Shown here: piece after piece, positions 51,730-55,650 of the stretch | Layout: each line of letters starts with the position of its first letter | How positions within the stretch are numbered: position 1 is the stretch's first letter | From: Methanooceanicella nereidis | GTDB lineage: Archaea; Halobacteriota; Methanocellia; Methanocellales; Methanocellaceae | DNA length: 64,000 nt | Assembly: GCF_021023085.1 (NCBI RefSeq) | Contig: NZ_PGCK01000007.1 | Coordinates: 124,001-188,000 of the forward strand | Direction of reading: 5' to 3' | Notes under the pieces: model-generated | What the model was told of the DNA's origin: nothing | The model's input: only the letters and a program-made list of their open reading frames with translations | Databases searched by the model: none | Program-made: the position numbers and the translations under genes

Positions 51730-51737
51730 TTTATATA
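51730..51737 (+). promoter_or_regulatory. TATA box of the tetR gene
   Basis: TTTATATA, preceded by AAATG. The first operator copy begins 14 bp downstream (51744). The same arrangement, AAACG-TTTATATA, recurs at 52753 before the efflux operon. Confidence 0.65.
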
Positions 51738-51743
51738 TTGTAA

Positions 51744-51778
51744 AATAAACATTGGTTAGTTAATAACCAGCTGTTATA
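51744..51778 (+). promoter_or_regulatory. Two TetR operator copies at the tetR promoter
   Basis: Two 17-bp sites with an 18-bp period: AATAAA-CATTG-GTTAGT (51744-51760) and AATAAC-CAGCT-GTTATA (51762-51778). Both fit AATAAC-N5-GTTATT, the consensus of the three sites at 52768-52820. They cover the expected transcription start, which predicts autorepression. Confidence 0.7.
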
Positions 51779-51808: not shown

Positions 51809-52537
51809 ATGTCGATCACGGACAGAAAGGAACGGGAAAAAGAGCAGAGAAGGAATGCCATTATCGATGCTGCGGAGAAGATGTTCTTCTCCAGGGGATA
51901 TGATAACGTCTCCATGGATGACATAGCCAGAGCAGTTGAACTCAATAAGGCTACACTCTACCTTTATTTTAAGAACAAGGAAGCATTATTTTTCGCTGTC
52001 GTGCTGCGTGGTGCCAGGATACTTAACTCTCTTGTAAAGGAAAACATAAAAACATGTAAGACCGGTTATGAAAAACTCTGGGAAACAGGGCACGCATACT
52101 TTACGTTCTTTAAAAAGTATCCCGACTATAACCAGGTCCAGAATTATTTCTATTCCGGAAGATTTGACCTGTCAAACGTAATGGATATGCAGGTAGATGC
52201 TATCGATGGTGGAAAACGTTATGCCTTACATGAGTATACTGTTTTCGATTTCCCGAAAATAACTGACGTCGAGGATGCGAAAGAGATCATAATGCTGCAT
52301 CATGAAATATTTGTCATCATGTGCAATTCTATAAAAGAAGGCATTGATGAAGGTATGTTCAGGCCGGATCTGGATCCGGCAGAAGCTGCCATTATATTCA
52401 CAATGGTCCTTGAGAGCGTACCCAATATGCGCCCGGACCTAAAGTCAGTGCTTGACAGCAGGGGAATAGATCGATCTAAATTCTCAAAAGATATCGGGGA
52501 CTTCATCGGTAATATGCTCAAGATAAAAAATACTTGA
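51809..52537 (+). CDS. TetR/AcrR-family transcriptional repressor
   Basis: 242 residues. The N-terminal HTH (~14-60: RRNAIIDAAEKMFFSRGYDN, MDDIARAVELNKATLYLYF, NKEALFF) is canonical TetR. The C-terminal ligand-binding domain is helical with many aromatic residues (YFTFFKKYPDYNQVQNYFY), suggesting a hydrophobic ligand. It stands directly upstream of an efflux operon in the same direction. Its own promoter and that of the efflux operon share arrayed 17-bp sites, so it very probably represses both and is relieved by a transported compound. ATG start after GGGGAAAACG. Confidence 0.92.
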   Translation: MSITDRKEREKEQRRNAIIDAAEKMFFSRGYDNVSMDDIARAVELNKATLYLYFKNKEALFFAVVLRGARILNSLVKENIKTCKTGYEKLWETGHAYFTFFKKYPDYNQVQNYFYSGRFDLSNVMDMQVDAIDGGKRYALHEYTVFDFPKITDVEDAKEIIMLHHEIFVIMCNSIKEGIDEGMFRPDLDPAEAAIIFTMVLESVPNMRPDLKSVLDSRGIDRSKFSKDIGDFIGNMLKIKNT

Positions 52538-52752: not shown

Positions 52753-52760
52753 TTTATATA
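52753..52760 (+). promoter_or_regulatory. TATA box of the efflux operon
   Basis: TTTATATA in the context AAACGTTTATATATTT, closely matching the tetR promoter at 51730. The first operator starts 15 bp downstream. Confidence 0.65.
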
Positions 52761-52767
52761 TTTAAAA

Positions 52768-52820
52768 AATAACTATTAGTTATTAAATAACTATTAGTTA
52801 CAAATTAACTACTGGTTATT
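52768..52820 (+). promoter_or_regulatory. Three arrayed TetR operators before the efflux operon
   Basis: Three 17-bp sites at an exact 18-bp period. 52768-52784 (AATAACTA-T-TAGTTATT) is a perfect palindrome. 52786-52802 (AATAACTATTAGTTACA) and 52804-52820 (ATTAACTACTGGTTATT) are close copies. They lie just after the TATA box and over the likely transcription start. The rest of the 402-bp spacer 52538-52939 holds only AT-rich sequence upstream and a ~120-base leader downstream with a 31-codon frame. Confidence 0.75.
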
Positions 52821-52853: not shown

Positions 52854-52949
52854 ATGAAGCCTGTTAACGATCCCCGAAAAGAATGGATATTGCCAGTGAA
52901 TCCTCAAATCGCTGACATTAATTGTAAGGTCAAAGTGGGATGTCTATGA
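52854..52949 (+). CDS. Possible 31-residue leader peptide
   Basis: Runs from ATG at 52854 to TGA at 52949 in the leader of the efflux operon. Its stop overlaps the second Met codon of the flavoprotein gene (ATGA at 52946). Residues begin MKPVNDPRKEW and end KVGCL. AGGCGAT lies 5-11 bases upstream. It could couple translation of the operon or be chance. Confidence 0.25.
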   Translation: MKPVNDPRKEWILPVNPQIADINCKVKVGCL

Positions 52950-53692
52950 AAGTACTTGCTATAAATTCCTGCCCTCAAAAGGATAAGGGTAACACCGCTC
53001 GTTTCCTGGGTCCGTTTCTGGATGGTATGAGAGATGCCGGGGCTGTGGTAGACCTCGTTTATGGCAGAGACCTGATGATATTTCCGTGCTGCGGGAATCT
53101 CAATTGCACTATCAAAACGTCTGTAAAATGTATCCAGTTTGACGATATGGAGTGGTTAAGGCCTAAAATGTGCCAGGCAGATATTCTTGTTTTAGCATCC
53201 CCTCGGTACTGCGATGGTGCCGTAATGCCTGATGGTTTCACCGGGCCTATGAGGGCGCTTTTAGATAAACTAAAAACCCATGAGCAGCCCTGCATAGAGT
53301 TACTGGAAGGCAGTCCCGGACGTATTCCTCGTGAAAATGTTAATCTTAAAAAGATCGTTCTGGTATCGAACCAGGGCTTTTTGGAAATAGATGATCTGGA
53401 TCCCGTATTAACACATGTCAAAGCTTTTTGCATTAATTCCTATCCAGAGCTTTCCGGTACCATATTTCAACCTTACTATGTCTTTTTAAGATGTGGCTTT
53501 GAAGAAGGCACTAGTATACTGGACATACCGGGATCGGCCAGGAATGCCGGCTTCCTGCTCATGCAGGAGATCAAAATGTCAGTAAAGGAAGATAAAATCG
53601 TTAGCCGGGAGCTTAAGCAAGGGGACAATTCCATTCGAACCTCTGTTGTAGGCGAGGAGAGTTTCAACGATAGACAAAAAAGGAGAGGATAA
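52940..53692 (+). CDS. Flavodoxin-fold NAD(P)H-dependent FMN reductase-like protein
   Basis: 250 residues. VLAINSCPQKDKGNTARFLG is the FMN-phosphate loop and LVLASPRYCDGAVMPDGFTG the SP-Y segment of flavodoxin-like reductases. Cysteines occur in PCCGNLNCTIKTSVKCIQ, where iron-sulfur flavoproteins carry their cluster motif, but the spacing (CCx4Cx7C) differs from the compact motif seen in the two paralogues here. The polar C-terminal tail is unusual. First gene of the TetR-controlled operon; the MFS gene begins 2 bp after its stop. Two ATGs (52940 and 52946) are possible starts. Confidence 0.8.
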   Translation: MSMKVLAINSCPQKDKGNTARFLGPFLDGMRDAGAVVDLVYGRDLMIFPCCGNLNCTIKTSVKCIQFDDMEWLRPKMCQADILVLASPRYCDGAVMPDGFTGPMRALLDKLKTHEQPCIELLEGSPGRIPRENVNLKKIVLVSNQGFLEIDDLDPVLTHVKAFCINSYPELSGTIFQPYYVFLRCGFEEGTSILDIPGSARNAGFLLMQEIKMSVKEDKIVSRELKQGDNSIRTSVVGEESFNDRQKRRG

Positions 53693-53693
53693 G

Positions 53694-55118
53694 ATGCAGC
53701 AGTCAGTTCAGATGCAGGAAATTTCTCAGGATACGGTCTATAAGAACAGGTATGTTATTCTGGCTGTGATCCTGATAGGTGTATTGATGGCAGTGCTTGA
53801 CGGTTTCATGATAAGCATAGCACTTCCTACGATCACAATGTTCTTCAACGTTAACGTGGCCCAATCTCAATGGGTCATAACAGGCTATCTGATATCAATG
53901 ACCTGTCTATTCATCGTTTTCGGAAGGGTCTCAGAGTATACCGGTAAGGTAAAATTGTTCATGACGGGGTTCGCTATCTTTACCTTATCCTCCCTGGCTT
54001 GCGGGCTCGCTTCCAGTATTGACCAGTTGATAGCATTCCGTATTATACAGGGTATAGGCGCATCAATGGTCGCAGGCATCAGCGGTGCCATGATCTACCA
54101 CGCTTTCCCCCAAAATGAGATCGGCAGAGCTATGGGATATTATATGGCAACTGTGGCAATAGGCAGCTTAATTGCCCCGGCGCTTGGCGGATTCCTGGTC
54201 GATTCCATGGGCTGGCAGTATATATTCTTTATAAATATACCAATCGGCGTTCTCCTGCTGGCACTTGCTTTTAAATATCTTAAATTACCGGAGATGATTT
54301 CAAAGAGCCTGGAGATCGACTGGATAGGTATGGGAACTCTTATTGTTACAGTGGTCTCGCTGATGTTACTTTGCAGCGAATTCGCGAGCAGCATTAGAAT
54401 AACCACGTCGTCGATCATTTATAGTGTAATATTCGCGGCAGCATTGATCATATTCACATTCCAGGAATCGAGGTGTAAAAAACCGCTGCTCGAACTCTCA
54501 ATATTCAGGAATAAAAGATTCACACTTCCAATATTAAGCATGATGTGCGTGGTCGCAGTTTTTAACATTGGCGCAGTTATCTGGCCGTTCTACTTCCAGG
54601 GCGTCATGGGCTATACTCCGTCTCAGGTAGGATTGTTGTTCATGGTGACCCCTCTAGTAATGATGTTTGCCGGACCTGTATCCGGAAAGCTGTATGATAA
54701 ATACCAGTGGAAGTATACGGCAGGGACAGGGGCGTTCATAGCCGCAATAGCATTCCTTTTGCTTGGTTATGCATTCATGGCGATCGACCTTACTTTTATC
54801 ATTCCGGCTTTCATAATCTGGGGCATAGGATATAGTCTCTTCACAAGCCCGAACAACGCCGAGGTCTTAAGCTCCCTTCCAAGGGAAAAAACCGCCATAG
54901 CATCCAGCGTCTCGTCCACTGCACGTAACCTTGGATCCACTCTCGGCATATCCCTGGCCAGTATTCTTCTAATGTTTTGGCTAGGTATGGCTGGCTATAA
55001 CGGAGTTGTATTATCGGCAGGACAGTCACTGCTCGCGAACTCTATAAGTGTGATCATGATCGCCGGCGGGGTGCTTTGCATATTAGGAGCGGTAACTTCC
55101 GTGTTAAGGAATATTTGA
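53694..55118 (+). CDS. MFS multidrug exporter, DHA2 (14-helix, EmrB/QacA-like)
   Basis: 474 residues with about 14 hydrophobic helices. LDGFMISIALPTI in helix 1, QWVITGYLISM in helix 2, FGRVSEYTGKVKLF (the MFS loop 2-3 motif), RIIQGIGASM in helix 4, and GFLVDSMGWQYIFFINIPIGV in helix 6 are hallmarks of the DHA2 drug:H+ antiporter family. It should pump a toxic amphipathic compound out of the cell. The ATG follows the flavoprotein stop by one base; the McrD-like gene starts 16 bp downstream. Controlled by the upstream TetR through the operator array. Confidence 0.95.
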   Translation: MQQSVQMQEISQDTVYKNRYVILAVILIGVLMAVLDGFMISIALPTITMFFNVNVAQSQWVITGYLISMTCLFIVFGRVSEYTGKVKLFMTGFAIFTLSSLACGLASSIDQLIAFRIIQGIGASMVAGISGAMIYHAFPQNEIGRAMGYYMATVAIGSLIAPALGGFLVDSMGWQYIFFINIPIGVLLLALAFKYLKLPEMISKSLEIDWIGMGTLIVTVVSLMLLCSEFASSIRITTSSIIYSVIFAAALIIFTFQESRCKKPLLELSIFRNKRFTLPILSMMCVVAVFNIGAVIWPFYFQGVMGYTPSQVGLLFMVTPLVMMFAGPVSGKLYDKYQWKYTAGTGAFIAAIAFLLLGYAFMAIDLTFIIPAFIIWGIGYSLFTSPNNAEVLSSLPREKTAIASSVSSTARNLGSTLGISLASILLMFWLGMAGYNGVVLSAGQSLLANSISVIMIAGGVLCILGAVTSVLRNI

Positions 55119-55134
55119 AGGAAGGTGATAATAA

Positions 55135-55650
55135 ATGACGAAGTTCAGAAGACCAATATCGAATATAATGGATGAAAATAAACTGATGCAGATCGAGATA
55201 TTTCCGCAAAGGCTGCTAAATCTTGATACTGCCCAGAAACTGTTGAACGAGCTAAATGTTATCGACGGCATAAACCGGATGGTCGTGTACGGCCCGGGTA
55301 TGCCAAAAGACGATCCTGCTGATCTGCTGGATGGCAAATATTGCGTTCGTGAAAAGAAATATATCTGCATCATGGGTGAAATGGTCGAGCTTACTGTCCA
55401 GGTCGGAAGAATATGGATCGAGGTCCGGGATGGAAGTGTCGTTGAAAAAATACGGGAAGCATGTGTAAAAACCCTTCCATTTCCCTTTGAACTATATGAG
55501 GGCCTTTATTTGCGGACTCAGAAGACTATCACTGATTACGTAAGAAAAGGCGGGGAAGTCGATGACATAGACCTGGGGATGTTCGATCCCGGTAAATGTG
55601 TGCCATGTTGCGAGACATTGCCAGGTAGAAAAGAAAATGATCTGGTATGA
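55135..55650 (+). CDS. mcrD: McrD-family protein in an efflux operon
   Basis: 171 residues of the methyl-coenzyme M reductase operon protein D family. QIEIFPQRLLNLDTAQKLLN, IDGINRMVVYGPGMP, ELTVQVGRIWIEV, PFPFELYEGLYLRTQKTITD and LGMFDPGKC all match the family pattern. McrD normally lies inside the mcr operon and binds methyl-CoM reductase, with a role in assembly or activation. Here no mcr gene is near; it is the last gene of the TetR-controlled flavoprotein-MFS operon, with its own strong ribosome binding site GAAGGTGAT. The C-terminal CVPCCET is an added Cys cluster. Probably a paralogue with a stress-related role. Confidence 0.87.
   Translation: MTKFRRPISNIMDENKLMQIEIFPQRLLNLDTAQKLLNELNVIDGINRMVVYGPGMPKDDPADLLDGKYCVREKKYICIMGEMVELTVQVGRIWIEVRDGSVVEKIREACVKTLPFPFELYEGLYLRTQKTITDYVRKGGEVDDIDLGMFDPGKCVPCCETLPGRKENDLV

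Follow-up and report, generated by a model that had tools for sequence, protein, structure and literature searches.

Introduction

McrD, which assists the methane-forming enzyme MCR, is usually, but not obligatorily, encoded within the mcr operon. It has been found bound to an MCR assembly intermediate, where it displaces the N-terminus of McrA, and has been proposed to aid the entry of F430 (PMC11301259, PMC12176620). Its conserved core, in M. luminyensis numbering, comprises R20, L22, a helix at positions 26-31, G47, P51, L81, G86, and E91 (PMC11301259). Described McrDs include those of mcrBDCGA operons (structures 8GF5 and 8GF6 from M. acetivorans and 8W33 from M. luminyensis) and the second McrDs of mrt-type MCR-isoenzyme operons.

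Here we describe a second McrD (McrD2) from Methanooceanicella nereidis, encoded within a 64,000-nucleotide stretch of the genome (the window). McrD2 resembles the mcrBDCGA McrDs in family, length, and conserved core, but lies outside the mcr operon, behind a TetR promoter together with a flavoprotein and an exporter. As with the mrt-type proteins, it is the second McrD of its genome; those proteins, however, adjoin a second mcrB/G/A set, whereas Methanocellales have one mcrA only. The locus also resembles TetR-controlled efflux operons in its TetR regulator, its array of operator-like repeats at the pump promoter, and its DHA2-type pump, but differs in including a gene for an MCR accessory protein and in having a co-directional TetR gene with its own promoter rather than a divergent one. 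A literature search, conducted mainly at the level of titles, found no published description of an McrD in an efflux operon.

Results

An McrD homolog closes a TetR-linked efflux operon

The original prediction for this locus was that an McrD relative closes a TetR-linked operon with a flavoprotein and an MFS exporter, and both gene order and family scores bore this out. A TetR-family regulator (51809-52537; 242 aa; PF00440, 66 bits against a cut-off of 24) precedes an operon consisting of an NADPH-dependent FMN reductase-like flavoprotein of the FMN_red type (52940-53692; 250 aa; PF03358, 37.2 bits, cut-off 24), a DHA2/EmrB-type MFS efflux permease (53694-55118; 474 aa; TIGR00711, 255.9 bits, cut-off 230.2), and McrD2 (55135-55650; 171 aa). 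All four genes are on the + strand, and the gaps within the operon are 1 and 16 bp. Fourteen helices are expected for the permease from its membership of the DHA2 family; a simple hydropathy scan gave merged and split peaks. Structure prediction for the flavoprotein was poor (pLDDT 40.3).

McrD2 is a full-length member of PF02505 (MCR_D; 150.6 bits, E-value 3.3e-44, cut-off 25), exceeds the cut-off of 100 for NCBIfam TIGR03260 (124.1 bits), and matches the M. acetivorans McrD structure 8GF5 at 1.9e-30. When aligned with other McrDs, it keeps the conserved core outside loop 5 (R26, L28, TAQKLL, G53, P57, L86, G91, and E96). The conserved GP..G..H of the glycine-rich loop 5 is absent from McrD2 and equally absent from the canonical Methanocella McrD (McrD1), and this region departs from 8GF5, 8W33, and other orders in both copies alike. 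The predicted order of strands and helices is compatible with a ferredoxin-like fold, although the model is weak (mean pLDDT 53.6).

The C-terminal cysteine motif of McrD2 (CVPCCET, positions 55597-55617) had been regarded as a departure from the family, and this turned out to be wrong. A C-terminal CC or CxxC occurs in 7/8 Methanocellales McrDs, in both copies (including the McrD at locus L003, 7691-8209), and in 0/64 McrDs of other families. The canonical McrD encoded elsewhere in the source genome also carries the CC pair, so the pair is not distinctive of McrD2; we rejected the idea that the cysteine cluster marks a new function and regard the pair as a Methanocellales trait of both copies.

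Regularly spaced operator-like repeats at both promoters

An operator array had also been proposed at the operon promoter, and it is real: three exact copies of TAACYANTRGTTA lie at 52770, 52788, and 52806 (52770-52818), spaced by 18 bp and just below a TATA-like box, TTTATATA (52753-52760, + strand), that we read from the sequence. Two degenerate copies, likewise 18 bp apart (51746 and 51764; 51746-51776), follow the TATA-like box of tetR itself (51730-51737), suggesting that the TetR probably regulates its own expression. When the intergenic region ahead of the flavoprotein gene was shuffled 20,000 times with a Markov model, no shuffle contained three TAACYANTRGTTA copies even with one mismatch allowed; since the motif was drawn by eye from these promoters, this test shows repetition and is not an independent prediction. 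The TAACYANTRGTTA pattern is no commoner than chance in the window when up to two mismatches are allowed, and with one mismatch it occurs at control level genome-wide. The evidence for these putative operators is the exact, regularly spaced cluster and not the pattern itself.

McrD2 is a paralog that arose within the Methanocellales

We compared four Methanocellales genomes: the source genome (3.19 Mb in 41 contigs), Methanocella sp. PtaU1.Bin125, and two that we take to be M. paludicola SANAE and M. arvoryzae MRE50. The source genome has two PF02505 matches and one mcrA, and the same combination of two McrDs and a single mcrA was found in all four genomes. The McrD1 gene of the source genome belongs to an mcrBDCGA operon that is complete and adjoins mtr genes on a different contig (C14). 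The possibility that McrD2 is simply a relocated single copy, which would have undone the original prediction, therefore fails, given this separate mcrD, and the single mcrA in 4/4 genomes likewise led us to reject a role for McrD2 in serving a second MCR isoenzyme. With an mcrD present in the intact mcr operon and mcrA present only once, McrD2 is neither a replacement for McrD1 nor the McrD of a second MCR.

A profile built from the four McrD2 sequences scored 326-332 bits on the McrD2s and 253-265 bits on the four McrD1s; across 394 genomes of the phylum, nothing else exceeded 146 bits. The eight Methanocellales sequences grouped as one clade (100/100) in a tree of 56 McrDs, and within it the canonical copies formed a sub-clade (98/98); monophyly of McrD2 was not recovered in the best tree and was not rejected (AU p = 0.18). 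Profile scores and tree topology together indicate that mcrD was duplicated within the Methanocellales lineage. The expectation that McrD2 would form a separate clade co-occurring with the MFS gene was thus upheld in part: the protein is a Methanocellales-only paralog whose monophyly was not rejected, and the co-occurrence with the MFS did not hold.

Across the core that can be aligned in all eight Methanocellales sequences, no fixed residue separates McrD1 from McrD2, and the sole separating position in the alignment is one glutamate within a gapped N-terminal stretch. The NG86 dN/dS ratio was ~0.29 for McrD2 and ~0.19 for McrD1 between M. arvoryzae and Bin125, the one usable pair, other pairs being more diverged or saturated. 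The lack of fixed core differences together with this ratio makes it likely that McrD2 has an McrD1-like function under constraint.

Second McrDs in the other families examined were found inside second mcr operons, except in two genomes of one family (f36, probably Methanoperedenaceae) and in one further genome (G384). The solitary McrDs of the f36 genomes (L087, 6510-7043; L088, 6703-7284) resemble McrD2 in being second McrDs outside the mcr operon, but they fall in a separate part of the tree, and no TetR or pump was seen beside them; their neighbors are heterodisulfide-reductase-like and cyclohydrolase-like genes. The solitary McrD relative in G384 (L085, 6779-7267) is very divergent (103 bits, with an end branch of 2.0).

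The conserved partner of McrD2 is the flavoprotein

In M. paludicola, ABC genes are followed by a TetR gene, a flavoprotein, and McrD2; two operators at 18-bp spacing lie between the TetR and flavoprotein genes, and 18 bp separate the flavoprotein from McrD2. The TetR there is orthologous to that of the source genome (54% identity, with a common insertion), and no families other than TetR, flavoprotein-type, and McrD are common to the two loci across the stretches compared. In Bin125 the flavoprotein and McrD2 are again adjacent and are followed by a PadR gene and then by a TetR-ABC unit that has operators of its own and a different TetR; we found no operators ahead of the flavoprotein-McrD2 pair. 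In M. arvoryzae, McrD2 stands alone, without an adjoining TetR, flavoprotein, or pump and with some neighbors in common with Bin125, and a search of that genome did not find a close flavoprotein homolog. No MFS homolog was found at any of these three loci, and ABC exporter genes lie near two of them (M. paludicola and Bin125).

The flavoprotein-McrD2 pair is accordingly present in three of the four genomes, itself a small number, and the orthologous TetR with its operators in two, which makes the pair the conserved core of the locus and the exporter its variable part. The predicted McrD-MFS linkage is confined to the source genome, and we rejected it as a conserved unit; what relatives retain is the flavoprotein-McrD2 pair (M. 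paludicola and Bin125) and, in M. paludicola, the TetR and operators. Nor did the flavoprotein prove to be a general marker of efflux operons, as outside these loci it mostly stands alone and was clearly linked to a TetR in one case (L121).

These arrangements bear on whether the location of McrD2 is meaningful. McrD2 may be a spare McrD for dosage or back-up whose place in an efflux operon is incidental, the pump and flavoprotein being unrelated to MCR; its solitary occurrence in M. arvoryzae, the change of exporter type between genomes, and the lack of fixed differences from McrD1 fit this explanation, whereas the retention of the flavoprotein-McrD2 pair in three genomes, and of the full TetR-operators-flavoprotein-McrD2 order in two whose flanks otherwise differ, does not. 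We consider an incidental location somewhat unlikely, yet the arrangements in M. arvoryzae and Bin125 keep it alive. It is highly improbable that McrD2 has ceased to act on MCR and now works with the flavoprotein as its partner or accessory. The flavoprotein is its closest genetic partner (18 bp away in M. paludicola, adjacent in Bin125), and McrD2 branches are longer than those of McrD1 in two genomes (0.38 vs 0.24 and 0.29 vs 0.17), but the alignable core carries no fixed residue change and M. arvoryzae has kept its McrD2 without the flavoprotein.

The TetR belongs to a family widespread in methanogens

Related TetRs (E <= 0.001, a threshold that includes remote TetRs) were present in 121 of the 394 genomes. 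Two operator-like sites at 18/19-bp spacing were found at 18 of the 30 best loci (L139-L168); because the motif was drawn from three Methanocellales loci that are among these 30, independent support comes from the remaining 15 or so. Such a pair occurred at 2 of 81 other loci, both of which are McrD2 loci. The usual neighbor of these TetRs in other methanogens is a flavodoxin-plus-4Fe4S protein, and sometimes an LCM-type methyltransferase or ABC genes. At one such locus (L156), for instance, the TetR gene (1156-1881, - strand) and its neighbor (2075-2875, - strand) match our locus in TetR family, operator motif, and spacing, but the neighbor is a flavodoxin-4Fe4S protein and there is no McrD. 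A paralogous unit on contig C3 of the source genome (L098, 5839-10994) comprises a TetR, two operators 19 bp apart, an LCM-type methyltransferase, and ABC exporter genes. Given the usual flavodoxin-type neighbors of this TetR family, McrD2 appears to have joined a flavodoxin-linked TetR regulon that already existed.

Discussion

The presence of a second McrD in an exporter operon suggests help for the methane-forming enzyme under chemical stress. Our leading interpretation, which we hold with about even confidence, is that McrD2 serves as an additional chaperone for MCR assembly and has been recruited into a redox or xenobiotic-response operon under TetR control. A small molecule would release the TetR from its operators; the flavoprotein would reduce or detoxify this molecule, or restore redox balance; and the MFS, or ABC pumps in other genomes, would export it. 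McrD2 would supplement McrD activity by keeping MCR that is apo or poor in cofactor open so that F430 can be inserted, and its supply would be uncoupled from the synthesis of new MCR subunits and placed under the repressor instead. Most economically, McrD2 would work just as McrD does but would be supplied under a repressor rather than together with the MCR subunits. In favor of an extra chaperone are the intact mcr operon and single mcrA, the published binding of McrD to an MCR assembly intermediate, the lack of fixed core differences from McrD1, the occurrence of McrD2 in 4/4 genomes, its linkage to the flavoprotein in 3/4, the TetR and operators in two whose neighbors otherwise differ, and the flavodoxin-type, methyltransferase, or ABC neighbors of this TetR family in other methanogens; against it are the solitary McrD2 of M. 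arvoryzae, the different TetR in Bin125 and the absence of operators ahead of its flavoprotein-McrD2 pair, and the MFS peculiar to the source genome.

A more specific form of this idea, which we regard as distinctly unlikely, is an inducible MCR rescue system of the Methanocellales, in which the TetR would sense a natural MCR-inactivating compound, the flavoprotein and pump would remove it, and McrD2 would reopen or reassemble damaged MCR. It is quite improbable that McrD2 instead handles F430 rather than MCR, binding free or damaged F430 when the flavoprotein and pump are on and so shielding the cofactor or easing the final step of its biosynthesis. According to work cited in PMC11301259 and PMC12176620, the product inhibition of CfbE is relieved by McrD in vitro; however, no feature of the locus points to F430, and the annotated stretch showed no cfb gene.

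If McrD2 is an extra chaperone of this kind, a second McrD placed behind its own repressor and apart from the mcr operon means that the inducer of this operon would show when a methanogen needs more McrD. Should the operon answer to MCR inhibitors, it would also bear on the tolerance of methanogens to methane-mitigation compounds.
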